Assembly: GCA_030068145.1 (NCBI GenBank)
Contig: JAPJBO010000519.1
Coordinates: 97,479 to 161,478 of the forward strand
Reading direction: 5' to 3'
Source of the DNA: Diplonema papillatum
Taxonomy: Eukaryota > Euglenozoa > Diplonemea > Diplonemida > Diplonemidae
Length of the DNA stretch: 64,000 nt
The notes under the pieces are model-generated. The model saw nothing but the letters and a program-made list of their open reading frames with translations, searched no databases and was not told where the DNA came from. The position numbers were made by a program, and so were the translations under genes. Below, one piece after another: positions 1-39,212 of this stretch (within the stretch, counting starts at the first letter, position 1; each line of letters opens with the position of its first letter).

Positions 1-4
1 ATGT

Positions 5-350
5 ACTCCTTCCGGGCGACGAACCTACCGACGGTGAACCTGCGCCTGAATCCCCTGATTCAGGCCGTGCCCGGCATCGTGCGTTGTCCTGCGAAGACGT
101 GGTAGGCACCCCTTTGCCCGAGCATGCACTCCTTCCGGGCGACGAACCTCATCTAGAACCATCACCAACCGACGGTGAAGCTGCGCCTGAATCCCCCCAT
201 TCGCAGGTCTCATGAGACACGGACTTTTCGTCTGCAGGTTGTACCCTGTATCTGCAGCGTTACTTCGCAGCGCACAGGTCTGCTCGGCAGCAGAGTGACC
301 TCCTGAGCCCTTCCGCTCGACGAACCTCATCTAAAATCAGCGCCAGCCGC
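5..350. repeat. Direct repeats at window start
   Basis: The core CTTCCGGGCGACGAACCT occurs near 10 and near 132, and a diverged copy (CTTCCGCTCGACGAACCT) near 312. The stretches after the first two copies (GACGGTGAA, CTGCGCCTGAATCCCC) also match. I see no convincing coding sequence from 1 to about 1100; the reading frames there are short and have no recognisable domain. Confidence 0.6.
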
Positions 351-1171
351 AACCGTGCGAATCTTCTCATTCGCGTGGACAAAAATGGGCAGGGGTTTGC
401 CTGCGAGTGGCCCTGCGTCCGCCGGATTAGGCGGCGCCTTGTGCGCTGCGAAGTTCCTGAAGGTCTTGATGCGAGGGGTTTATCCCAGCCTTCTGAATAC
501 CAGCAGTATGCCGATGCCCAGCAAACTGTGCCATCCAACTACGAGCTTTTTTAACAGCAGCAGCATTTTTATACGCAATTGGTGCTGGAATTACCGCGGG
601 TGCTGGCACCAGACTTGTCCACCAATTGTGTTCATTGGTTTGGTTCAGATATCATCCATTGCTTCTAACGTACTCAGTACGTGTCGAGGCTATTTCTCTT
701 CGCTGCCTCAGCAGTGTTGCTATTGGGCAATTTGCGTACCTGCTGCCATCTTAGCTGTGGTAGCCGTTTCTCAGGCTCCCTCTGGAATCGAACCCTATTT
801 TCCCTGTTACCCGCTACAGCTGGCGACAGTGCAGCCTCCCACGTCACATACAGGGCTAGAGTCCTCCTGCCCGATCATCCCTTCCACGGCGCAGAGCTTG
901 GCCCAAAGGTTACCTCCTTTGATCTTTTGCAGCTGGCAGCCTCCTCAAGTATTTCCTACAAAGCAGGTGCTTATACAAAAAAAAAAAACATACACACAAG
1001 TGTTCTTCGACTGTTAACAAACCGCAAAAAAAACAGGGCTTCTCTTCCTCGTCGGCAAACGCCGACTAGGGATGAACCCTGTGAACGTGCGTCATCCAAA
1101 CAAAAAAAAAAAAAAGAATTTTGACCAGTTTCTGCTTTGCCTCTCCAACCTGATATTTGCGCCCCCCCCCC

Positions 1172-4249: not shown

Positions 4250-6045
4250 TGTATTGTTCCCGCGTAGTTGTTCCTTTTTGCGGCCGCCGCATCATTGCAC
4301 ACAACCCTGCTCTTCGGGATGTTGGTGGTCGAACCTCCGCACAGCAGGGCCTCCCCGGTAGACCCTTTCTAGCTGGCGCGAGCGAGGTGCGCTACTCACC
4401 ATCGAAAAGGCAGGTTCCGACCGCTCTGTTTCAAGCACGGCTGGAGAGGCACGGTAAAAATGGGAAAGACTGTGTGATCAAAAAACGTGCGAATTCCAAG
4501 TTTCGCTACCGCCCGTCCCGTGCTTCACGAAGCTCCGCACAGCAGGCTCATCCCAGGGGGGGTCGGCGACGCGCACGCGACAACCTTCCCCGCCCCCTCT
4601 CTCTCCTCCAAAGCACAAACCGACGGTGACCCCCAAACCCTTTTTCAACCTTTCCAATACCCTTCAAGCTAAACCATTATACAACGCCCCCCCCCCCCCC
4701 CCCCCCCCTCTCTCTCCTCCCTACAGTTGCCTGTAGGGAGAGAGGAGAGAGAAGAGAGAGGAGAGAGAGCAGCGCGCGAGAGTCACCTGGCAACAACGCG
4801 CCCACCTGATGGAGGTGTTGCGCTCAGCAGCAAGGGTACCCTTGCTCCTGAGCGCAACACCTCCATCTCCAATCTTCTCCGCGCCGGGAAGCTCCCGCAG
4901 GTGGCGGTCACATCACAAGTCCGTAGTAGTCAGCACTTCGGCCATGTGGTTCCGCTCAGCTGTAGTGGATAGATGCCACCCGACAAAGCACCACGAGTGC
5001 GCTAGCATGTGCTTGTCTGCTGTCGTATTGATCGCCGCGTCGCTCTCCTCGATACGAGTAAGGTTGACTGTAGAGAGAACACACCCAACGTCCCTAGTTT
5101 GGCCGAATTTATCAAGTCGTTTCGGAAGACGCGTGTTGAACGCTGAACCCTTTCCTTCCCCTACCCCTAGCCTGTCGCATGGTGCGAAGCTATCTCACGT
5201 TGAGGATTGCCTGCTGTAGTTTGATCGCCATACACCCGTTTGCCCCCTTCATGCGAACGCTTTGCTTTACTCTCGTGATGGGATCTTGCTTCGGCAATTC
5301 CGATCGTACGATCTCGGCCGCGAACAGGGCTGTGTCCCCGTCGTGATGAGACGGCCAACCAGGTGTCCCGAAGCCACACACGGCTCTTCGTCACTCGTCA
5401 AAAGTAGTGGTGCACGGCTGACACAGCATGTCCGTGAGCTAGGCAGGCTTTTTGCTGCTGCATTTCGAGTCTCATGCCTCTGCATCCCCGTTGACCACCT
5501 TGCCGCGGTCTTCATCGTTTCCACCCGGTGAGTGCGCCTTCTCTCCAAAACGGGGATTCCTGTGCTCTTGTAGCACGGGTTCTGACTGTGACGAGCCCCC
5601 GCGTGTTGCTTCAACGATCATCTCGTTGAAGCAGCGTGCAGGCTACGAAAGAAGCGGCGGAAGCAAGCACCGCACCGGGTGGACGTTCGACGCGTGTGGC
5701 CCTGCTTTAAAGTGTGCACCCAGCCTGTCACAAGGCCCCAGATCCTCTGTACAGCTACGTAGTATCCTCCTCTGCTAGTACGTATGCATGCCTAACACTA
5801 CACAGCACGAGGGTTGTGCATACACGCCCACGCTACGTGCTGCAGCACAGCAGTACCACCGTACAGCACGCCGTGGACATCCGTACGTAGCATTCCAACC
5901 ATGCGCATGCCGCTGTTTCCATGTACATCGCCATTAAATTGCCACAACTGCCGCTGCGAAGAACGCTTCTCCACCCCTCCCTGCATTCCCGCGAAGAAGA
6001 CTTGATGCTCGCATCAAACACACATGAGAGGGCACCCCTAACCAG
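4250..6045. other. No gene recognised
   Basis: Contains a C tract at about 4686-4708, a purine (GAGA) tract at 4735-4775, and a pair of oppositely oriented GAGGTGTTGCGCTCAGCAG / CTGAGCGCAACACCTC segments around 4810-4865 that could fold back. Reading frames are short, overlap on both strands and show no domain, repeat or splice pattern I could support. Confidence 0.5.
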
Positions 6046-6048
6046 TCT

Positions 6049-6165
6049 CAAAAACAGTCTTCCAACCGCAGCAGGAAAAAAGTCTAAAAAACAGTCTTCC
6101 AACCGCAGCAGGAAAAAAGTCTAAAAACAGTCTTCAAACGCCGGGGTACAGTAGGAAAACAGTCT
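6049..6165 (+). repeat. Tandem repeat upstream of the 6216 gene
   Basis: Three to four units of about 35 bases carry AAAACAGTCTTCCAACCGCA followed by GCAGGAAAAAAGTCT. The last units are degenerate and run up to a possible 3' splice site (CCGCAG) about 30 bases before the start codon of the next gene. Confidence 0.7.
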
Positions 6166-6215
6166 TCCATCCTTGTAACCGCAGGGAAAGAGCGGGGGTG
6201 CAGAAGGGGGAGGCC

Positions 6216-18411: not shown

Positions 18412-20672
18412 AGGGTGGACACCGTTTGGTACCGGTGTGGTTCTGTGAGAATAAATGCACCGTGAAACGGTGAAAGCATGAAACGAAGAAGGAAAAGACA
18501 CCGTCCAGGTCCATGCTCAAAAGAGTCTCCGGCGAGTTGGGGATGGAGGGGCTTCGTAAGAGGCATCAACAAGCGCCTCAACGAGGTCGGGCTTCGTAAC
18601 GTACCGCCCTCTTGAGTCCTTTACGTCAATGCCAGCTTCTGTGGCCTTGTCACGTATCGTGCCCACCGGAAGCTGCAGGTACCCCGTCCTGAGCTGCTGC
18701 GTCATAGCAGTTCTGTGAATACGCCGCTGTACTTCCTCGTTGGAGTCAAGCTTTCTTTTTTTTTTAAGCTCGACGTGCGTAGTGGGGCTGGGAACCAGAG
18801 ACACGCCAAGGGCTTTCAGTGACCCGCTGTTGTGTCTTCTTTGTGCGATACTAGCAACCCTTTCGGGGTTGGCACACGGAAGGCGATCTTGAATGAACGA
18901 TACTGTCGCGTGCGCCCCTTCAACGAAATCATTGGAGTGAGGGAGGTCCCCACTACGGCTGGGTGTCATCTCTTTGTCTTTTTCCACAAAAGAGTCGAAC
19001 TTCGTGAGCATCGCGTTCGCGGAAGTTCGAAGAAGAGCCGCTGCTTGCGGTGTAAACAGCACCTCAGCTTGTGCAAGGCCCAGAGAGTTTTTTGGGACTT
19101 TGTCAACAATCCAAGAGGGAAACACACTTCTGACTCTTGCAAGCTTGGTGAGTATCACGCGACAGGCAGGATACAGTTTACGCGCTTCGGTGACGTTAAG
19201 TTCACCTTCTTTCTTCTCGTCAAGTTTCAACAAAACGAGGCATGCTTTGTACGCAGCATAGCACAAAGATGCCGACACAAGGATAGGCAAGGACTCACTC
19301 GAAAGAATCACATTCACTGCATCAGAACCAGGGACGTGCAACTCCTTCCGTTTGACTGCTGTAAGGAAAGCGTTGCGGTTGTGAAGAACAGCAGCCAAAG
19401 CTCGAACAAGCCACGCGTACTTGTTCCCGACTTGTCGACCGAGATTTAGGCCCTTTGGCCAACGCCCTCTTTCTGCAGCCACCATCGACGTCCTCACTTT
19501 CAACCCTGACGAAGTAGTCGCGATGGTGCTGGCAGCGCAGCAGGCTGTATGGAGGGTGGTGATCGCTGCTTCGATGTGCTGCGGGATGATCGTGGCCTCG
19601 ATCATGTGCTTCAGCTTGTGCGACGAACATCCCGTGGCCTTCACATTCGCTTCATTGCACCCTGCCAGGGCAGCGCTCTCGTGGTCGACTACGAATCTGT
19701 CGGGCGTGTTGAAGCCCTCCTCACGCGCAAAGTTTTGCACACGTTCGATCTGCCGAGCTTTATCGCTTGCTCTGCCACCTTCACCGACCGTCGCGTCTGC
19801 TACCACCTGCAGCACGCGCCCATTTGCAGAGAAAGGGTTCTTGGCTGTGAGAGCGACCTGGTGGTACTTCAGGCCGGCCTGCTTTCTGCTGCCCGACGAA
19901 GCGTCTGCTGCCCCCTGCACCGTCAACTCTTCTCCAGCATCTTCTCGCAGCTGTCGCAGGCGGCGGAGAAACCGTACAGTCGTACTCGGACCGCTGTACG
20001 CATCGGTGTCGCGCACAGTATTACGCGCGATGTTCCGTCCGCGCCCTCTCATGCCAATGACGCACTCCAATACGTCGGAGAGCGCTTTGCCGGCAGCCTC
20101 GGCACCAATGCCGTAGCTGCGAAGGATCTGCAGCGCGGTCACAATACCGGCAGAGTAACTGCCATCTTTGGCATAAAAGCTAGGTATAGTGGGCTTGCGC
20201 TTCAAGCGCTGATGCCAACCAACCAGCGTCGCTGTCCTCGTCGTCGACACTGTCATCGTTTTTACCAGTCTGATTCTGCTTCTTCTGCTCACAACACTCA
20301 CAAGCCACACACCACACAACCGGTCGCTGTCCACCTCCAGTTCGCTGACGGCTCTTTCGTACCCATAGCTTTCCGAGGGCCTTCAGAAAGGCCTCCCCAG
20401 ACACTGCAGTTACTGCACGTGCCCTGCCGCGCAGCCGGCGCCACGACTGAAGAACAACCTTCGTTGGCACTGTGCACAGCTGTTCGTTCCTGAGCACGAG
20501 CTTGCGGAGATACGCACGTGCAGCGTTCGTAGCTGCCTTGCTCCTGGGCGTCGTTCGGCCCATTTTTGTTTCCTTTTATGGCTGCCCGTACGTGGTTGTA
20601 CTGTCGTAGTTGGGTGTTATGAGTGATGAAGCACACACAGGCTGCGTGGTGGTACCAAACGGTGTCCACCCT
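18412..20672 (-). mobile_element. Complete DNA transposon with 22-bp perfect TIRs
   Basis: AGGGTGGACACCGTTTGG plus four more bases at 18412-18433 is the exact reverse complement of 20651-20672. Between them lies a single transposase-like gene on the minus strand. The left end also contains a short hairpin (CACCGTGAAACGGTG, 18459-18473). Flanking bases (ACTC, AAAA) give no obvious target duplication. It lies in the RAD23-like intron in antisense orientation. Superfamily unassigned. Confidence 0.8.
18517..20563 (-). pseudogene. Transposase-like gene, one frameshift (family unassigned)
   Basis: The ATG at 20563 opens a 127-codon frame with a Cys-rich WCVACECC motif; a second frame, read from about 20230 to the TGA at 18517, supplies roughly 570 more residues. 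The frames differ by one base near 20215-20235, so a 1-base indel (or an unseen short intron) separates them. The second part looks like an RNase H-fold transposase: VVADATVGEG, then FVVDHESAAL, CSSHKLKHM (a CxxH-type motif as in hAT-like enzymes) and an acidic residue in NDFVEGAHA. The C-terminal ~40 residues (DVKDSRGRYVTKPDLVEALV) resemble a SAP/HeH DNA-binding motif. Catalytic assignments are inference; no homologue was searched. Confidence 0.6.
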
Positions 20673-25419: not shown

Positions 25420-26604
25420 CTAGGTAACGGCCGATGCACCCTCGGGCTGGGAGTGGGGGTCTCTGTTCGCTCTTCTGTTTGCATGGTGCTTCGGGCAGCA
25501 GCTGGCTAATGCTTCGTTTGCTACTACACAGTCGCCGCAGCGTCCTAGTCTGTGTGCTGTGCAAAAGTGCATCCGCGGCCTTAGACCATCCGATCCGTGA
25601 TGATGCTGCTTGAGGCGACAGCAGGTCTCCGCCGGGAGGCGCTTTTTAACGCACTCCCTGCATCGCGGCTTCCTGTGATGCGAGCAAACCACTCCGGGGC
25701 GGGAGGTATTCACCGCGCCTTCTGGGGCCTCGAACGGGGGGGCTCCTTCGCACGGTTCCGTGCTTGAGCTTCTTCCTGCCGCTTCAGCCTTCGTCTTCCA
25801 ATCCGGCTTTCCCTGCGTCCACCCTGCCGGATAGGCCTCCTCTGGCAAAAAAGTTGCGGCCCATCCCAGGTGCGGAGGGAACGGGCTGTTTTCTTGTTGG
25901 TCTGGCCGATTTTCTCGTGTGTGTTCGCGTATCTTCATGATCACATCCTCGGTCGCGGTCAATAACTGTGCACGCCTCGAAACACCCCGCACAACCGTTC
26001 CTCCCACAGATGTCAAAACGGTGGTGGAGTATTCATGGCCGCAGAACCACGGCTGTGCAACCACCTTCCCATACGCCTTCCCCATTTCGATGAGGCTGAG
26101 CGCTTTTCCTAGACCGGACCGGCGGAAGTTTGCCAGCATGGTCTCTTGTTGCTGCCGGGTGGGCCTTTGGCGTTGCACCAGGTCCATGGCGGCGTTGCTG
26201 AGCGCGTCCGCGTCTGTGTTCAGCTCCCGCGCAACGTGCTCAATGTGCAGTGTCAGCCGTCTCTGCAGGGACGACACCTTCAAGGCCGCGCGCGTCAGAT
26301 ACGGCTTCAGTTCCTCTGAACATGCCATGCGTCGTGCGAGGTGCCCGACAACTAGCGCCGAGTCGCCTCGCACCGTGCATTCCTCTCCTTCCGCTTCGCC
26401 TGCATCCCCCAGCAGGTGCAGGCCCGCTAGCAGTCCTTCGTACTCTGCTACGTTGTTGCTGCGCACGGTCGGCAGTGGCAGGACCACTTCTGCCACTTTC
26501 ACTCCATCGCGGTACACGACTGCCCCCGCCCCGGCAACGGCGAAGGCGGTCCCATTCGCTCTCGCCCCGCCATCGAAATAAACCAGGAGCCTGCTGTCTC
26601 CCAT
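25420..26604 (-). CDS. RNase H domain with tandem Cys-His motifs (LINE-like)
   Basis: 394 codons from the ATG at 26604. Residues 1-145 are a type I RNase H: YFDGGARANG (first Asp), NVAEYEGLLAGL (Glu), VRGDSALVVGHL (Asp) and TDADALSNAAMD (last Asp), all four acidic residues present. The linker contains RPTRQQQETMLANFRRSG and a WAATFLPEEAYPAGW block shared with copy A. The C-terminus has two tandem units of the form C-x2-H-x4-C-x2-C-x8(9)-C-C-x3-H (CSHHRKPRCREC...CCRLKQH and CTAHRLGRCGDC...CCPKHH), probably zinc-binding nucleic-acid contacts. RNase H would remove the RNA strand during reverse transcription. Intact in frame, but part of a truncated element. Confidence 0.75.
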   Translation of the reverse strand: MGDSRLLVYFDGGARANGTAFAVAGAGAVVYRDGVKVAEVVLPLPTVRSNNVAEYEGLLAGLHLLGDAGEAEGEECTVRGDSALVVGHLARRMACSEELKPYLTRAALKVSSLQRRLTLHIEHVARELNTDADALSNAAMDLVQRQRPTRQQQETMLANFRRSGLGKALSLIEMGKAYGKVVAQPWFCGHEYSTTVLTSVGGTVVRGVSRRAQLLTATEDVIMKIREHTRENRPDQQENSPFPPHLGWAATFLPEEAYPAGWTQGKPDWKTKAEAAGRSSSTEPCEGAPPFEAPEGAVNTSRPGVVCSHHRKPRCRECVKKRLPAETCCRLKQHHHGSDGLRPRMHFCTAHRLGRCGDCVVANEALASCCPKHHANRRANRDPHSQPEGASAVT

Positions 26605-31119: not shown

Positions 31120-31167
31120 AAAAATAATTTATAATTTCGATTTAAAAAAAATTTAGGTTTTTTTCTA

Positions 31168-31467
31168 CCATTAAATTACGCTCCTTCGAGGGGTCTCTCG
31201 GTGCCGTCGTTCCCGACTCGTCCCGCTGAATTTAACGTACATTTAATGCTGCATTCGCCCAAACAGTTTCGGTGGTTACGATCCTTAGCTGGCCTGCTAA
31301 ATCTGTGGGACAGAGCCGACGGCGAAGACGGGACGGGCTCTGTGACGGGGGCGGCAGGTGCGCAACCGTGGCCGTTAGTCTAACACACGGAGTTCAGTTG
31401 GCGGCGCGCAAGCTTGCGTTTGCTGGCCGATCGTGCCATTCACCTCACGTGTCCATTGGACTGTCCC
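31168..31467 (-). repeat. B2 terminal repeat of the PAT-type element
   Basis: 300 bases matching 32981-33280 with no difference noticed. Starts CCATTAAATTACGCTCC on the plus strand and ends CATTGGACTGTCCC. It is the outer 3' repeat of the element. Confidence 0.9.
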
Positions 31468-31586
31468 TCCGCCGAGTCGGCCCTAGCAAGCCAGGGAACG
31501 CAACCTCGTCTGGGGTTCCCGGGGGAAAGCCCCAGGCACTGCCGAGGGCGCGGGGGGGGCTGGGGAGCGGAAGCCATACTCGCTGG

Positions 31587-32882
31587 TCAGCCCGCCCGGA
31601 CCCTCGCCGTGTACATATGGGCTAGAGAGACAGGATTGTAAAAACGAACCGCCTCGACGCAGTCCGGGTCCCTGAGGACCTTGTCGCCGTAGTAGGTGAC
31701 CATGCTGTCCGCGGACCAGTCGCCCATTTTTTTCACTTGCATGGGGTCCATGCCCGCCTTCAGGAGGGTACAGCAGCCCCCTATTCTGGCGCTGTGGGTG
31801 ACGAAGGCCGCTCTGCTCCTCCCTGCGGGGCGACTTTCGTTGAGGCACGACAGGATCCCTGGCTTCCCCGCGCCGCCTAGGGCCTCCCTGAAGGAAGGGT
31901 ACGTGACGTACGGGCACAGCAGGGCCTTGTCGCCCGCCATTCCCTTCAGCTGCGTGAAAACTGCCACCGGGCAGTACCTGACTTCACGTGGAACGCCGTC
32001 GGGCGCTTCCGGAAGGCACAGCGGAGGCACCAGCTCGACCCTTTCGAACGTGAGGTGTCTGCTGCACCTGCCCCGTGCTTTCGACACCCCCCATTCCACC
32101 TTCACCTTGCCCTCGCTGACATGGACCTGGTCCGTCCGCACCGACTGCATGCTGGAGGTCCTGAGGAGCGTGAAGTGCTCCCCCAGAAGCTGCAGAGCCG
32201 CCCGGTACGCCCCGACCGTCCGGACTCGGCCAAAAATCACCCTGAACTGGGCCAAGCCAAGGGGCTCTCCGCTCTCGGGATCAGGCGACTCCCTCTTGAG
32301 CCCCTTGAGGATTCTGCCGACGTCGCCCGCCGGGTCGTCGAGCACCCAACCGGCCCTGGCATTCTCCGACACGATCGCGCTGATCATGCCACTCGGCGCC
32401 TTGTACCCGTCCATGAGCAGCAGATACCCCGCGAACGTTTCAAGCCTCCGCACCGTCGTCGGATAGGGCGGAACGCCCTTGCCCTCGCACCACTCCCTGT
32501 ACACGACGGTGTTCGAGCTATAGGTCCGTTTGGTCCCCTCGGTCGTGTAGCGGGATCGCATGTGGGCGCGGGCCTCCTCCTCCGAGCTCTTCTCCAAGGT
32601 CCGCTTCAGCGCCCGCTGACGCGTCGTCTCCCGCTTCCCAGCTGGCCGCCCCTCGGGCCCCCCTGGAGACGGCTCCGAACCCCTCGCCCTCAGCAGATGC
32701 TGCAGGCGCCCGAACAGCTGAACGCCCGAGGGGTCGGCCGGGGGGTTCACCAGCGCCCACATCTGCATCCTTCCCACGGCCCCGGAGGACGTGTGCTCCG
32801 GAAGGCCCGCAAGATACCCGGTCACCTTGCGCCACTCGTCGACCGAGAACGAACCCTCCAAGCCGGCTAGTCCTTGCACCAT
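31587..32882 (-). CDS. Tyrosine recombinase of PAT-type retrotransposon
   Basis: 431 codons from the ATG at 32882. The enzyme would integrate the circular DNA form of the element at a short shared core. Catalytic signature in order: an arginine in LLRTSSMQSV (~240), THSARIGGCC (H-x-x-R, ~360), then GDW and the nucleophile region MVTYYGDK (Tyr ~397). Spacing and order fit the phage-integrase-like fold of DIRS/PAT recombinases. The N-terminal part (SRYTTEGTKRTYSSNTVVY...) resembles a SAM-like core-binding domain. It lies between the inner (B1A2) and outer (B2) repeats, on the same strand as the other ORFs. No stop or frameshift is seen. Confidence 0.88.
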   Translation of the reverse strand: MVQGLAGLEGSFSVDEWRKVTGYLAGLPEHTSSGAVGRMQMWALVNPPADPSGVQLFGRLQHLLRARGSEPSPGGPEGRPAGKRETTRQRALKRTLEKSSEEEARAHMRSRYTTEGTKRTYSSNTVVYREWCEGKGVPPYPTTVRRLETFAGYLLLMDGYKAPSGMISAIVSENARAGWVLDDPAGDVGRILKGLKRESPDPESGEPLGLAQFRVIFGRVRTVGAYRAALQLLGEHFTLLRTSSMQSVRTDQVHVSEGKVKVEWGVSKARGRCSRHLTFERVELVPPLCLPEAPDGVPREVRYCPVAVFTQLKGMAGDKALLCPYVTYPSFREALGGAGKPGILSCLNESRPAGRSRAAFVTHSARIGGCCTLLKAGMDPMQVKKMGDWSADSMVTYYGDKVLRDPDCVEAVRFYNPVSLAHMYTARVRAG

Positions 32883-32906
32883 ATTCTCTGGGGCTGGGCG
32901 GGCGGG

Positions 32907-32983
32907 AAGAAATATTGTGTCCTGTTTGGTAGATTTCGTTCTCTGCCGGGGCTTGCTCGAAATTAGCTGGCATTAAACTTCCA
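32907..32983 (-). repeat. A2 internal repeat of the PAT-type element
   Basis: 77 bases (AAGAAATATTGTGTCCTG to AACTTCCA) repeated at 38483-38559 (A1). Overlaps B1 by the shared CCA at 32981-32983. Confidence 0.9.
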
Positions 32984-33280
32984 TTAAATTACGCTCCTTC
33001 GAGGGGTCTCTCGGTGCCGTCGTTCCCGACTCGTCCCGCTGAATTTAACGTACATTTAATGCTGCATTCGCCCAAACAGTTTCGGTGGTTACGATCCTTA
33101 GCTGGCCTGCTAAATCTGTGGGACAGAGCCGACGGCGAAGACGGGACGGGCTCTGTGACGGGGGCGGCAGGTGCGCAACCGTGGCCGTTAGTCTAACACA
33201 CGGAGTTCAGTTGGCGGCGCGCAAGCTTGCGTTTGCTGGCCGATCGTGCCATTCACCTCACGTGTCCATTGGACTGTCCC
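32981..33280 (-). repeat. B1 internal repeat of the PAT-type element
   Basis: 300 bases in direct orientation with 31168-31467. Together with A2 it forms the internal junction that can act as template to restore both ends after reverse transcription. Confidence 0.9.
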
Positions 33281-33429
33281 AATGGCGCTTATCCCAATGG
33301 ACCTTGGCGCGGCGCGCGACGGTGGGCTGAGGGGGGGAAGCACAGAACGGGAGCTAGACTCGCCCACTGCCTCTTCCTCTCGCCGCCCGGGACGCGGAAG
33401 CGCCGCCGGAACTTAGTCTGCGGTCGGCC

Positions 33430-35424
33430 TCAGAGCACTTCCGCTATCGCCGCGTCCACTACGCGCTGGTCGACGTACCTCCTTGTCGGCAGGATACCCC
33501 GGATTGGGACCCCCGCCCAAGCGTGGTGGAGCCTGCTGGGCAGGTCCGCGATGTTGTCCACCCCGGGGACCCTGTCGAACCACACATTGCCCCTGGACCT
33601 GGCCAGGCGCTCCCAGAACAAGTGGACCGGCGCTCTTAGCTCCTTCGCCCTCGTCCTCCCCTGTATGAGGCTGCCCAGGACGACATCGTTGTCCACCCAC
33701 ACCGAGACCGCGAAGTCTTCCTCGTCCCCGAACCACAGCCTGAAGGCCACGGTCACAGCCACGAACTCGAGGTGGTGGATCGTCATGCCGGCACCTTGCT
33801 GGGGAACCGGGTGCGCGAAGTACTCTACCGCTGCCACCTCCCCCTCGCTTATCGTGGCGATAACCGCACCCAGGCCGAAGAGACATGCATCCGTGAGGAG
33901 CACGTACCTGGTCCCCTCGCCAGGACGCACCAGTTGCAGCGGTACGGTCTTCCGAAAGCACCGCTCGTCCTCGGCCAGCGTCCTCATCCACCATCGCAGA
34001 GCTGCCTCGAGGTCGCCGCCGAGCCTGAACCCGGCGAAAGTCGTGGCCGCGTTCGACCTCCTGAAGATGGGTTGCAGCGGGACCCGGCCTACCCTGCCGA
34101 AGAGCGCCGACGTCGCAAAGCCAAGCTTTCCCGCCAGGGAGGCCGCCTCGCCCGGCGACAACGAGTCTCGGGCTAGCACACCCTCCAACATGTGCACGAG
34201 TCCCCTTCTCCTGGCCGCCGAGATCGCCACCTCCACCCCCTCGCTTGTGATGGTGAACACGAGGCCGAGGTGTCGAAAACGCTCCCCCTCGGCCGTCTTC
34301 TCCTCGTTGAAAGACGTGAGGAGAATGTCCTGGAGAAGCTCCAATACGTCCGCCAGGGCCCTGTCGTCGCCGGCCGGGCACGGGGCTGCGAAGTCGTCGT
34401 AGTATTGGCATAACGGCAGCCGCAGGCCCCTGCGCACGACCCTCGCCAGGACTTTCGCAAATGCGTTGTAGTGAACCACGGCTGCGGCCTCCCCGAACGA
34501 CAATCTCCCCATCCTGAAGAACCTGACTCGGCCTGTCGCTGGTTCCTCCGCCACAACGCACCTGCAGAGCCCGTCGTTCCTGGCATGCAGCTGGCGGTAC
34601 GCGTCCTTGTGGTCTAACCCCACGAACTTAAATGCGGAGCTCGGGTCGCGTGCCATCGCCCCGACCGCGACCCTTCTGGCGACCTCCGCGAACACGTCCG
34701 CCGAGTCCAGTTTGACGGGCGTTGACATCCGAACAGCCTTGTTAATCAACGACATCCGCCCGTCGTCGCATGCGCGCTCTTTGACGCGGGGGATCTCCTC
34801 GTCGGACTTCACCTGGCGGACCACAAACCTCCTCAGGTAAACTGCGTTCGCCGGTGGACTCTGGAGCTCGACCATGAAACCCGCCTCCAGCTCCTTCTGG
34901 ACCGAGCGCCAAATGGCCTCCTTGTTCGCCGGGGAGTCAGCGCGGATGGCCTGCCTAGACCTCGCCAGTACGTCGGGCTGGCGGCGCAGCAGCTCCTCTT
35001 CGGTGATCTCGGGCTCCCCTGGCGGCCCCGGGGAGTAGATGTCCTCGTACCCCACGACCCCGGACATAGGGCAGCCCGTCCTGAGGTGGCGCAGCAAGGT
35101 GTCGGCTCCCCGGATACCCAGATCCTGTAGCATCTCCTCCAGGAGGTCCACGTGGCACGGACCGGCTTCAGGCGGCGGAAGTTGCGAAGATCTCCTTCTC
35201 CAGCGAGCCAGGAACCCTGCGCGCATGCGCTGGGCCTCTGGAGACGGTGTCGTCGCGCAGTAGTTGATCGCCGCTTCCATCTCCCCGTCGATCTGGGGCA
35301 TGTCCTTCTCCTTCGGCATGGCGTCAAAGGCGCACTCGGCGAACTCATACCTTCTCCGCACGTCCTGGAACTGAAGCTTCTCGCCCGGGTCGCCCCCCCC
35401 GGGAGCTGACGAACCCGGCGCCAT
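33430..35424 (-). CDS. Reverse transcriptase-RNase H of PAT-type retrotransposon
   Basis: 664 codons from the ATG at 35424. The RT part spans roughly residues 180-420: FKFVGLDHKDAYRQL holds the first catalytic Asp, FRMGRLSFGEA is the next block, and CQYYDDFAAP (~342) holds the paired Asp. An RNase H domain follows at ~505-640: LLTDACLFGLGA (Asp), HHLEFVAVT (Glu), VWVDNDVVL (Asp) and DNIADLPSRL (Asp). This RT-RH order without a protease or DDE integrase is typical of the DIRS order; a methyltransferase-like domain, found in DIRS1 proper, is not seen. It follows the gag-like ORF after a ~140-base gap. Intact reading frame. Confidence 0.9.
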   Translation of the reverse strand: MAPGSSAPGGGDPGEKLQFQDVRRRYEFAECAFDAMPKEKDMPQIDGEMEAAINYCATTPSPEAQRMRAGFLARWRRRSSQLPPPEAGPCHVDLLEEMLQDLGIRGADTLLRHLRTGCPMSGVVGYEDIYSPGPPGEPEITEEELLRRQPDVLARSRQAIRADSPANKEAIWRSVQKELEAGFMVELQSPPANAVYLRRFVVRQVKSDEEIPRVKERACDDGRMSLINKAVRMSTPVKLDSADVFAEVARRVAVGAMARDPSSAFKFVGLDHKDAYRQLHARNDGLCRCVVAEEPATGRVRFFRMGRLSFGEAAAVVHYNAFAKVLARVVRRGLRLPLCQYYDDFAAPCPAGDDRALADVLELLQDILLTSFNEEKTAEGERFRHLGLVFTITSEGVEVAISAARRRGLVHMLEGVLARDSLSPGEAASLAGKLGFATSALFGRVGRVPLQPIFRRSNAATTFAGFRLGGDLEAALRWWMRTLAEDERCFRKTVPLQLVRPGEGTRYVLLTDACLFGLGAVIATISEGEVAAVEYFAHPVPQQGAGMTIHHLEFVAVTVAFRLWFGDEEDFAVSVWVDNDVVLGSLIQGRTRAKELRAPVHLFWERLARSRGNVWFDRVPGVDNIADLPSRLHHAWAGVPIRGILPTRRYVDQRVVDAAIAEVL

Positions 35425-35562
35425 GACGCGGCGCCCGGCTTGTTGAAGTGAAGAGTGTGAGACGAGCTGGCGTGGGTGTTGATGCGCGGGCAAGGGCCCG
35501 CGCTGATGGGATGATATAGAAAGTAAAAATGGCGGAGAGGAAGGAGAGGCGCCACCACGAAG

Positions 35563-36717
35563 TCAGTCGTTGGGTTTGGCCTTCTTTGCGCGCCCCCCTT
35601 CGTCGCCTCGTTCGCGGCGCCCGGTTCGGTTCCTCAGTTGTGCCTGCTCCTGCGGAGAGAGAGCGGGGGCGAGGGGGGCGGACCGGGCAGAGACCTCGCC
35701 GCGTTCCCGCCTGCCCGGCCCCCGGTGGCCCGCACCAGACGTCGCCCTCGCGCCGATCCCCCTCCAGAACAGCTCGTTAAGGATCCCGGGGTACGCCTCC
35801 AGCAGCTTCTTCTCGGCCGCCTGGTGCAGCTCCGCTCCTTCCTCGGCCTTCGGCTCCTCGGCGAATAGCTTCCGAAGTCTCTCGTCGTACTCGGCCGCCA
35901 TACCCTCGCCGTACATGGCCGCTATGCCCGCCACCACCGCCGGGTACCCCAGGACTACCGGCCACGGCCGGCTCCCGAAGCACCCCGCGAGGCTGGCAAC
36001 GACCACGAAGCGCTGCAGGGTGAGCACCCTCTGAACGGCGTCGAGGCCGCCGTCGACCTTCCAGTCGGGCGTCCTGGGTGTGTACGGGGGCCTGCTCACG
36101 TCGACGTAGGGCAAGGCGAGCTCCGGGTTCGCCTCGACCACTGCCTGGTAGGCATTGAGAGTGGCGCGCGGCGGGACCAGCACTTCTGGGAGACTGGCCA
36201 GGCCGAACCGGAGCATCCGCTCCCTCACCGCCAGCTCCTCCCGGGCCTCGCCCGGCTTCCTCGCCCGCCTCTTGTCCTCCTCCTTGGCTGCCTCCTTCTT
36301 CTCCCGGTCGGCATGGCACGCGCCCCACTTCTTGGCCGCCGTCCGGAAGCGGACCGGGACCGCCGTCGGCATCCCCTCCCTGCCCTCGATCACCACCAGC
36401 TCCAGCAGGGAGCGGTGGCCAGACACACGAAACTTCTCGACCACCGCGAGGAACCCTTCGGGGGCTTCTTCGTACATGCCGGCGGCCCACGCCTCGTACA
36501 CGACGACGTGGAGGATGTTGAGCCTCTCCGCCAGCTCCCCTTCGCTGACGCCCGCCCACTTCCTGGCCGCACTCCTTTTGACCCCTTCATACTGGATGTC
36601 CACGTCCTCCCGGCGGAACCACGAGCACGACTCGAGCTCCTCGAAGGCGGGGCCAGGACCCGGACCGCGGCGCGCAACTTCCCTCCCCACCCAGTACGGC
36701 GCAAGATTGAACTCCAT
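35563..36717 (-). CDS. Gag-like protein of PAT-type retrotransposon
   Basis: 384 codons from the ATG at 36717 (MEFNLAPYWVGRE); the frame is open further upstream but without an ATG. There is no sequence-level match I recognise, and the gag role is inferred from its place as the first ORF. Features seen: a charged helical stretch rich in Glu/Lys/Arg (~ADREKKEAAKEEDKRR), hydrophobic segments (VVASLAGCFG, VVLGYPAVVAGIAAMYG) and a basic, Gly/Arg-rich tail (GRRERG, RAKKAKPND) likely to bind RNA. No CCHC zinc knuckle. The stop lies ~140 bases before the RT ORF's ATG. Confidence 0.7.
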   Translation of the reverse strand: MEFNLAPYWVGREVARRGPGPGPAFEELESCSWFRREDVDIQYEGVKRSAARKWAGVSEGELAERLNILHVVVYEAWAAGMYEEAPEGFLAVVEKFRVSGHRSLLELVVIEGREGMPTAVPVRFRTAAKKWGACHADREKKEAAKEEDKRRARKPGEAREELAVRERMLRFGLASLPEVLVPPRATLNAYQAVVEANPELALPYVDVSRPPYTPRTPDWKVDGGLDAVQRVLTLQRFVVVASLAGCFGSRPWPVVLGYPAVVAGIAAMYGEGMAAEYDERLRKLFAEEPKAEEGAELHQAAEKKLLEAYPGILNELFWRGIGARATSGAGHRGPGRRERGEVSARSAPLAPALSPQEQAQLRNRTGRRERGDEGGRAKKAKPND

Positions 36718-37279
36718 GATGTTCCCCTTTCGTTCCTGGTAGAGGTTGGGGTCGGCCGCTTCACGGCCTGTTTCCGTGCCCCGCTCGGACACCTGGCCCT
36801 TACGCTAGTCGCCCGGCACACGCCGGCCGGGCCGGCGGTCCACGGTTCCTGGCAGTCTGCACGGTCGCCGGGCCGGCAGGCTACCGTTCCGGCGACTCCT
36901 CAGCGTGGGCGGCCCCGTGCCGCCGCCGGCAGTGCGCCGCCCTGCCGATGCCCCCTGGAGGCCCGCTGGCGCTCTTGTGAATCTCCGCCTCGTGACCTGC
37001 GTTTGTTCATTTCTGCCGCCTCATAAAGGAAAGGAGGGGGGAAGATGGGGGGCTGTTGCGCGTCCTGCAGAACGAGAAAGCCCTTACCTCCGCCCGCTCC
37101 GGGAGAAGAAAACGCAGAAAGGCTATCGACCCCGGGGACCACGTGACCGACCGCGATCGAGACGGCCGTCGACCTCCGACGCCAGACCGCGACAACGGGG
37201 CCGGAGATACCACTGTCTGTGTGTGTGTGTGTGTGTGTCGGATGCTACCAGGCGACGAGTAGCCCTGAGGCCCCACGAC

Positions 37280-38400
37280 CGATAGCAGGCCACATCACGA
37301 TCTACCGGGAGCCGGGTTGCGACAACCAGTGCCCGGTTGTCGCAATCTATGAGTCAGATCACTGTTAGCAGGTTAACACCACCATCTATCAGAAGGCCGG
37401 TTTGTTACAACGGGCCTGATAGCAGGTTACACCACCATCTATGGAAGTCAGACTACTGATAGCAGGTTAACACCACAATCTATCAGCAGCCGGTTTGTGA
37501 CAACCGGGCAAGTGGAGACCACTAACCGGGATGTCACGACACCGATAGCAGGTTAACACCACAATCTATCAGATGGGCCGGTTTGTTACAACGGGCCTGA
37601 TAGCAGGTTACACCACAATCTATGGAGTCAGACTACTGATAGCAGGTTAACACCACAATCCATCAGAAGCCGGTTTGTGACAACGGGCAAGTGGAGACCA
37701 CTAACCCGGAGGTCACGACAACCGATAGCAGGTTAACACCACAATCTATCAGAAATGAGAAATGCCGGTTTGTTACAACGGGCCTGATAGCAGGTTACAC
37801 CACAATCTACGGAAGTCAGACTACTGATGGCAGGTTAACACCACAATCCATCAGAAGCCGGTTTGTGACAACGGGCAAGTGGAGACCACTAGCCCGGAGG
37901 TCACGACAACCGATAGCAGGTTAACACCACAATCTATCAGAAATGCCGGTTTGTTACAACGGGCCTGATAGCAGGTTACACCACCATCTACGGAAGTCAG
38001 ACTACTGATAGCAGGTTAACACCACAATCTATCAGAAGCCGGTTTGTGACAACCGGGCAAGTGGAGACCACTAACCCGGAGGTCACGACACCGATAGCAG
38101 GTTAACACCACAATCTATCAGAAAGGCCGGTTTGTTACAACGGGCCTGATAGCAGGTTACACCACAATCTATGGGAGTCAGACTACTGATAGCAGGTTAA
38201 CACCACAACCTATCAGAAGCCGGTTTGTGGCGACCAGGCGAGTGGAGACCACTAACCCGGAGGTCACGACAACCGATAGCAGGTTAACACCACAATCTAT
38301 CAGAAAGGCCGGTTTGTTACAACGGGCCTGATAGCAGGTTACACCACAATCTATGGAAGTCAGACACTAATAGCAGGTTACCACCACAATCTATCAGATG
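37280..38400. repeat. ~180-bp tandem array in the PAT-type element's leader
   Basis: About six units of 180-188 bases; GTGGAGACCACTA marks them near 37512, 37691, 37879, 38061 and 38241. Each unit holds three shorter modules built on CTGATAGCAGGTTAACACC followed by ACAATCTATCAG, in which CTGATAG and CTATCAG can pair. It lies between A1 and the gag-like ORF, so it would be in the 5' untranslated RNA. A 15-unit GT run is at 37208-37238. Confidence 0.8.
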
Positions 38401-38482
38401 TCAGAGAGGGAAAAGCTTCTTCGACTACCAGTTAGTAGTCGTCGCCAGTTCCGGAAAGCGACAGAGCCCGAAACCCACGAAC

Positions 38483-38559
38483 AAGAAATATTGTGTCCTG
38501 TTTGGTAGATTTCGTTCTCTGCCGGGGCTTGCTCGAAATTAGCTGGCATTAAACTTCCA
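38483..38559 (-). repeat. A1 terminal repeat of the PAT-type element
   Basis: 77 bases matching A2 at 32907-32983; its outer end is CCA, next to the resumed hAT h1 sequence GCAAATCTCGCC. Confidence 0.9.
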
Positions 38560-39212
38560 GCAAATCTCGCCGGAAACAAAACGAAAAGTGGCTCCGGCAG
38601 TACTGTACTGTACTGGTGTGGCACGTGATGCGCACGTGATGTCACGTGATGTGTCCGTGTCACCATGCGGTGTACCGTGCAGCAATGCGCTGTTGGTCAG
38701 TGGAACACAGTTCGTGGGCACTCAGCTAAACTAAAATATCAAAAAGGCCGTGAGGGAAGGTATGCAAAGCCCCAAGATGGGCGAAGCATTATAATAATAA
38801 TAAATAAATAAGGACATCATGTGCGGGCTGGAGCTTCTGTCGAGGACCTCCGAAACGACGGAAGAACACGAGCAAATCGTTTCTGCTCATTCAAAAACTA
38901 CAAGGAAGCCTTGGTGCGCACAGGCGCAGTGCCCCCCTGAATACTGTTACTGCCATCAAAGCTTTTTTTCACTTACCACCTCCGTAGTTTGATGACGTGC
39001 GCACCGCCACCGCAGGCCTATATCTCACCACTCCTCTCCGTTCCCTAGTTTGTGTGTATGGGGCGACAGTTCCAGGCACTCAGCCACCCACCGAGCCGAA
39101 AAACCGGGGTTTTCGCTGAAACCGGCTTTTTTGCTCGGTCAGACAAAGAGCTAAAGTCCCCTGCTCTAACTCTACAAAAAAGAAAAAAAACAACCGCAAA
39201 CAGTCGCACTCG

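Follow-up and report, generated by a model that had tools for sequence, protein, structure and literature searches.

Retrotransposons that carry a tyrosine recombinase (YR) combine this enzyme with a reverse transcriptase (RT) and RNase H, and in the passages of the papers compared here the closure of their circle and its integration have so far been drawn from sequence models. PAT elements such as nematode-form Pat1 and Toc3 have split direct repeats, internal repeats between the RT and YR genes and a YR in the same direction as the RT (PMC4157794). DIRS1-like elements are YR retrotransposons that also have an internal circular junction and do not duplicate their target, but they have inverted terminal repeats and are described with a 3-base-pair (bp) junction and an identical target (PMC3266345). 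VIPER/TATE of kinetoplastids, which are likewise euglenozoan hosts, encode a gag-like protein, a YR and, as the third open reading frame (ORF), RT/RNase H, and have an A1 repeat as well as B1, A2 and B2 together at the 3' end (PMC6681497), while Ngaro elements follow the plan A1-[ORFs]-B1A2B2 with the order gag-like, RT/RNase H, YR (PMC8547959). Among DNA elements, the YR-encoding Cryptons usually have recombination sites with inverted repeats around 6-8 bp (PMC3212892), and the Vibrio SE elements (strand-biased circularizing integrative elements) have a 6-bp putative crossover, with the target's six bases at one end and the circle's six tending to the other, in the authors' words a seemingly strict rule (PMC9345347). 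Here, we describe a YR retrotransposon of Diplonema papillatum located on contig JAPJBO010000519.1, in a stretch of 64,000 nucleotides that we call the window, and compare its junctions with those of related copies throughout the assembly (271,365,524 bases in 2,910 contigs). The comparison suggests, with a probability of roughly 0.6, that integration proceeds via a 6-bp overlap that does not need to match and that is resolved with one polarity, for which a single productive exchange at the B arm would be the simplest explanation.

Anatomy and junctions of the element

The original prediction, made from the window sequence, had proposed an intact PAT-type retrotransposon with the repeat order A1...B1A2...B2 at 31168..38559. 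Its coordinates and anatomy are confirmed: all three ORFs are open, the repeats are identical on alignment, and the YR lies between A2 and B2. The features are as follows.

31165..31170, no strand: six target bases CTACCA on the B2 side, belonging to the host and not to the element (compared copies and relatives of the target)
31171..38559, minus strand (reads 38559 to 31171): whole element, 7,389 bp, boundaries from the comparison of copies
31171..31467, minus strand: B2 repeat, by identity with B1
31587..32882, minus strand: YR ORF, 431 amino acids (aa), matching Phage_integrase (E 1.5e-6, PF00589), with motifs HxxR and YY seen by eye
32907..32983, minus strand: A2 repeat, 77 bp, identical to A1
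32972..32989, no strand: ATTAAA-CTTCCA-TTAAAT, the internal junction, in which a 6-bp overlap (32978-32983) separates two arms, a layout shared by two other families
32981..33280, minus strand: B1 repeat, 300 bp, identical to B2
33430..35424, minus strand: RT/RNase H ORF, 664 aa, YYDD, about 30 aa beyond the last RNase H motif
35563..36717, minus strand: gag-like ORF, 384 aa, without a Pfam match
37366..38398, no strand: tandem array, 181-bp period, 5.7 copies, from repeat analysis
38483..38559, minus strand: A1 repeat, 77 bp, identical to A2, with CTTCCA (38554-38559), six bases belonging to the element, at its end
38560..38565, no strand: AT-rich target arm GCAAAT (host), from comparison of the right flanks

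Read on the minus strand, the order is A1, tandem array, gag-like ORF, RT/RNase H, B1, A2, YR and B2. The identity of the B repeats starts at 31168 and not at 31171 (31168-31467 versus 32981-33280, 300 bp) since the last three target bases are CCA by coincidence.

Joining the outer ends of the element reproduces exactly its internal A2/B1 junction, and all three families that we compared have the common plan ATTAAA-[six variable bases]-TTAAAT. The six bases are CTTCCA in family 1, to which the window copy belongs, CACCTA in family 2 and TTCCCA in family 3, the sister family with 81% identity in the RT, while the arms are kept. The outer ends follow a different rule on each side. We compared 46 unique B-side ends, of which 19, 14 and 13 come from the three families; the six bases in front of the element match the family's own six at means of 1.58, 1.50 and 1.69 of 6, with 1.5 expected by chance, and at none of them do the element's six bases follow foreign DNA. 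The A-side ends, which were drawn with queries or filters including the core, all carry the element's core (21 of 21 for family 1, 16 of 16 for family 2). On the B side the six bases come from the target, and on the A side they come from the element. The idea that only three target bases matter was dropped, as comparing the arms in three families gave a gap of six bases. In 33 of the 46 left flanks, a purine (G or A) immediately precedes the B end.

This bears on the earlier claim that every junction shares CCA as a fixed core. The window copy does have CCA at all its junctions, but the outer B-side trinucleotides of other copies differ (CAA, GGA, AAA, TGG, TTT, AAT, TAT, GGG and others), and among the 46 ends, that of the window copy is the only one to show the last three core bases of its family, so that the identical trinucleotide of DIRS1 is not a property of these ends. 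The corresponding model, stated in PMC3266345, in which the 3-bp circle junction (here CCA) recombines with an identical target trinucleotide, agrees with the window copy, yet it fails at the other 45 ends and at the empty site of the C213 copy, which reads CACAAG and not CCA; already contradicted for these families, it is hardly credible here. Table 3 of the same paper lists several elements with differing start and end trinucleotides, for example AcDIRS1 with CTT/CAT and TnDIRS1a with GTT/GAT, and core mismatch may therefore not be confined to the elements described here; a discussion of these differences was not found in the passages of that paper covered.

The sampling of ends was as follows. 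B ends were fetched as 40 stretches (39 left ends and one internal junction) from 80 places listed, the best 40 scored per list. For family 1, the left ends on C2727, C770 and C2595 were dropped as repeats of those on C1821, C1952 and C766, respectively, together with C854, a tandem triplicate. For family 2, 19 B ends were fetched and five with an A repeat in front dropped. For family 3, 20 were fetched, some of them from a subgroup with 96% similarity in the B end; five with an A repeat in front and three duplicates were dropped and a nested end on C22 was added. On the right side, four family-1 ends whose flanks were already counted (C2521, C1952, C1365 and C1724) were dropped, and family 2 is represented by 18 of 40 places listed, minus one A-B junction and one duplicate; two of the 16 kept (C299 and C21) begin alike and may lie in one repeat.

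Target sites and the course of integration

The sequences flanking the insertions are structured. On the B side, 213 of 276 bases at positions -12 to -7 are A or T, compared with a permuted mean of 149.6 (standard deviation (sd) 7.6; 0 of 20,000 permutations as high), and 147 of 276 at -6 to -1 equal the background; the profile at -12 to -7 is the same in family 1 (0.763) and in families 2 and 3 (0.778). On the A side, AT reaches 195 of 222 at +1 to +6 in 37 flanks, compared with a permuted mean of 119.1 (sd 7.0) and with 789 of 1,480 further out. In addition, the right flanks show similarity to the B arm, with 4.19 of 10 matches to TTAAATTACG in register versus 2.35-2.73 at offsets of at least 3. 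Judged from these profiles, the target plan is an AT-rich arm, six neutral bases and a second AT-rich arm, which is the layout of a YR site with a 6-bp overlap; typical YR sites consist of 11-13-bp inverted repeats 6-8 bp apart (PMC3212892). Blunt or non-YR insertion into AT-rich DNA, with the YR not responsible for integration, is rather improbable. The junctions alone would resemble such a simple insertion between two bases, but the target's neutral six-base gap between AT-rich arms copies the plan of the internal junction, whose six bases change from family to family between constant arms; in addition, the YR ORF is intact.

Relatives of two target repeats provide the empty state. The joined flanks of the C213 copy gave 17 full-query matches among 45 listed, and the two empty relatives that were read align through the joint without gain or loss, the six bases being CACAAG; away from the joint, they differ by a single mismatch or by a single gap within a homopolymer stretch. 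For the window target, two of the 40 listed places are the window's own flanks, and 38 are other loci whose match, at 82-94% identity, spans the joint. The five of these 38 that were read (91-93%) have TTTCTAACCA or TTTCTGACCA directly followed by GCAAATCTCG, that is, CTAACCA or CTGACCA in place of the window's CTACCA before GCAAATCTCG. The CCA left of the window copy was already in the target. The pre-insertion site predicted earlier was thus nearly right, except that these five relatives are one base longer than the window flank, and the predicted lack of a conventional target duplication holds in both the two empty copies of the C213 target and the five window-target relatives, with the one-base difference near the joint. 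Furthermore, the tandem array of the C22 copy, whose sequence without the insertion is known, contains a family-3 element and continues in phase; insertions in an 11-bp satellite (C1821) and in (TA)n (C1164) are in phase as well. In two copies of one dispersed repeat, L059 (C213) and L070 (C128), elements of two different families are inserted after the same bases, GACACAAG.

We propose that RNA from A1 to B2 would be copied by the element's own RT/RNase H and that the internal B1-A2 junction would provide the sequence by which the ends are joined to form a circle with the junction ATTAAA-CTTCCA-TTAAAT, as in the model for this repeat order. The YR would bind the two AT-rich arms around the 6-bp overlap in both circle and target, the arms and their spacing being observed and the binding presumed, and the target overlap may mismatch that of the circle. 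In the product, as read from ends and empty sites, six target bases adjoin the B arm and six element bases the A arm, without duplication or loss. Only the strand exchange on the B-arm side would be productive, because the mismatched overlap would block the second exchange, and replication or repair would then complete the insertion. A more specific version is tentative and in our estimate falls somewhat short of even odds: one productive YR exchange at a 6-bp overlap without homology, perhaps with a single-stranded or nicked circle, completed by replication as discussed for SE elements and integron cassettes. Integron integrases are described as needing a replicative resolution pathway (PMC4792948).

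The same junctions could arise by standard YR integration, in which both strands are exchanged at the mismatched 6-bp overlap and repair of the two heteroduplex junctions invariably favours one and the same strand. No unusual strand exchange is required in this case, but concordant one-way repair at both junctions is demanded. If a two-strand exchange at a mismatched overlap segregated at replication without repair, both polarities would be expected, as in the precedent of Tn916; since none of the 46 B-side ends is reversed, we regard standard exchange with repair as unlikely.

Several points weigh against a single productive exchange on the B-arm side with one polarity. We infer this exchange from the junction sequences, and directed mismatch repair or cutting without stagger would give identical junctions. 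Furthermore, the queries that retrieved most A-side ends themselves terminate in the core. In a count without core filter, C or T follows the A arm CGAAATTAGCTGGCATTAAA 208 times and A or G three times, with A1 and A2 taken together in families 1 and 3, whose first core bases are C and T; three A arms followed by G (C262:177338, C278:149025 and C317:160955) could represent a further family or reversed polarity. The window's own target six, CTACCA, match CTTCCA at five of six positions, and the one-base difference of its empty relatives falls within the six bases. Some flanks are doubtful because contigs end inside the element: L044 (C1952) and L045 (C1817) have an identical right flank (1,054 of 1,054 bases) and differ in the left one. 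Predicted structures were too poor to use, with a mean predicted local distance difference test score of 38.1 for the YR alone and 32.6 for the RT/RNase H and one relative.

Copies, derivatives and classification

The arrangement is not a chance one, as the element recurs across the assembly, with at least 42 matches to its B end and at least 40 to its A end. A search with the RT protein (1,248 candidates, 67 scored) listed 68 matches, among which 18 places, the window included, are 100% identical over the full 664 aa, and further groups have 81-83, about 72 and 60-63% identity. Twelve copies were compared with the window copy outside the tandem array; the row of C228 (L052), aligned from the wrong B copy, was ignored, and L040 has 9 gap columns. 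Nine of the remaining 11 differ at 0-3 of 4,809-6,190 aligned bases, C156 at 8 of 6,162 and C4 at 11 of 6,186, the latter within one 500-bp bin. B1 equals B2 in 13 of 15 comparable copies, with two differing positions each in C228 and C156; 16 copies have two B repeats, C2595 was left out for indels in B1, and some contigs repeat one locus. Between the gag start and A1, the distance measures 1,795 in eight of 14 copies and 1,305-2,531 in the rest. Recombination between subfamilies as the origin of the identical repeats in C4 and C156 was considered and dropped, the bodies without the tandem array differing at so few positions. The recent movement that had been predicted from the identical repeats is borne out, and the element looks like a recently active, autonomous YR retrotransposon.

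Identical copies might also stem from segmental duplication or assembly redundancy instead of retrotransposition. Contigs breaking inside the element do share flanks (C1952, C770, C1817 and C1365, as well as the pairs C2521/C658, C766/C2595 and C2727/C1821), and L047 (C770) and C1952 have their left flank in common at 1,005 of 1,006 bases; for C1952, C1817, C770 and L022 (C1365), a chimeric contig or a duplication is possible. As a general explanation this is very improbable, as other copies have unrelated flanks and precise ends, and empty target relatives exist.

Shorter forms occur as well. C300, C370 and C400 are B-A units without genes, C400 measuring 210 bp with 132 bp of B; they may be compared with SIRE, the short derivative of the A2/B2 region of VIPER (PMC6681497), and with the isolated AB repeats reported for Ngaro (PMC8547959). 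In the 600-bp pieces read, C213 and C693 have B followed by the RT side, without YR and A2, a form that B2 x B1 recombination would also yield. Elements are arranged head to tail on C2595, where a family-1 A1 abuts a family-2 B, and on C52 a family-2 A repeat stands directly before a B that is a B2 by its spacing. Insertions at the B end of older copies are predicted by the proposed rule because the left end of an insertion has a perfect B arm. L063 (C854) has a B repeat without a following A, inside a 399-bp tandem triplication. Base 3 of B varies, with TTC in C156 and TTG in C837, C370, C693 and C854; ordinary mutation is possible, as the internal B1 of C156 keeps TTA and its B2 also differs at position 74.

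The domain assignments differ in strength. The PF00589 match of the YR lies above the Pfam cut-off, whereas those of the RT/RNase H ORF (RT_RNaseH_2, E 6.3e-5; RVT_1, E 0.14) lie under theirs, but they are backed by YYDD and the acidic RNase H residues, which are readable by eye. Pfam gave no DDE-type integrase in the three ORFs, no methyltransferase domain up to E 1 and no match for the gag-like ORF, in which no CCHC zinc finger was found by eye. NCBIfam gave no matches and PHROGs only matches at E 0.18-0.33. A sequence search of the PDB with the RT found nothing up to E 1, and with the YR eight sequences at E 0.39-0.99, three of them Cre and the others interleukin-2 receptor. No relative of the RT was found among viral contigs. 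Pyrimidine tracts with AG precede the RT and YR start codons and, more weakly, that of gag; judged by eye and without a control, they may be spliced leader (SL) trans-splice acceptors.

RT/RNase H and a YR without a DDE integrase match place the element in the DIRS order. Its split direct repeats, with A2B1 (32907-33280) between the RT and YR ORFs, correspond to nematode-form Pat1, Toc3 and Kangaroo, and the YR has the direction of the RT (both minus), as in Toc3 and Pat1 rather than Kangaroo. By repeat order and YR direction we regard it as a YR retrotransposon with PAT-type, PAT/Toc3-like architecture. The earlier assignment to the PAT type thus stands for the architecture, and we do not call the element a proven PAT member because the methyltransferase, a DIRS-group feature, was not found. 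PMC4157794 also describes a Pat1-like lineage in C. briggsae without it, and likewise no zinc finger was seen in the gag of Toc3, although Pat1 Gag has one; a diplonemid host is not mentioned in its passages. Ngaro also lacks the methyltransferase (PMC3266345), but has B1A2B2 together downstream of the YR, whereas here the YR separates A2 from B2. VIPER/TATE differ from the element in the same respect and in gene order, RT/RNase H standing here before B1A2. Cryptons have short direct repeats at both ends, not seen here, and no RT (PMC3212892), and the Vibrio SE elements are DNA elements of bacteria that have two YRs and a few selected target sites and involve no reverse transcription (PMC9345347).

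Host genome and implications

The published D. papillatum genome has ~280 Mb, and its authors argue for haploidy (PMC10161547). They mention ORFs resembling TATE, while DIRS, VIPER and Ngaro are absent as words from the main text. In our search of open-licence papers, covering the top-ranked results, elements of this kind were not reported in diplonemids, the TATE-like ORFs aside, and titles and abstract openings held nothing on a non-identical overlap in YR retrotransposons. Elsewhere in the window, a partial, divergent eukaryotic small-subunit rRNA gene (1-1004, minus strand, 152.7 bits) is cut by the window edge, and two minus-strand ORFs lie outside the element, one of 394 aa with an RNase H-like RVT_3 domain (25420-26604, E 2.3e-8) and one of 579 aa without a Pfam match up to E 0.01 (18517-20256). 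U2 small nuclear RNA gave at least 46 matches in the assembly (2,120 candidates, 46 scored), 27 of them on one contig, mostly at 1,240-bp spacing with two larger gaps; U2 genes are reported to alternate with 5S and SL RNA genes up to 27 times consecutively (PMC10161547).

Several large, near-identical families in one genome reported to be haploid supply enough junctions for a direct reading of the rule: an arm, six free bases and an arm, with one polarity. The requirement for an identical core is contradicted for these families, and a eukaryotic retroelement becomes tied to a strand-biased pathway described in bacteria. The families also offer convenient substrates with which the enzyme could be tested. 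If the one-exchange reading is true, these elements would be freed from a fixed target core, and new copies could insert at the B end of older ones.

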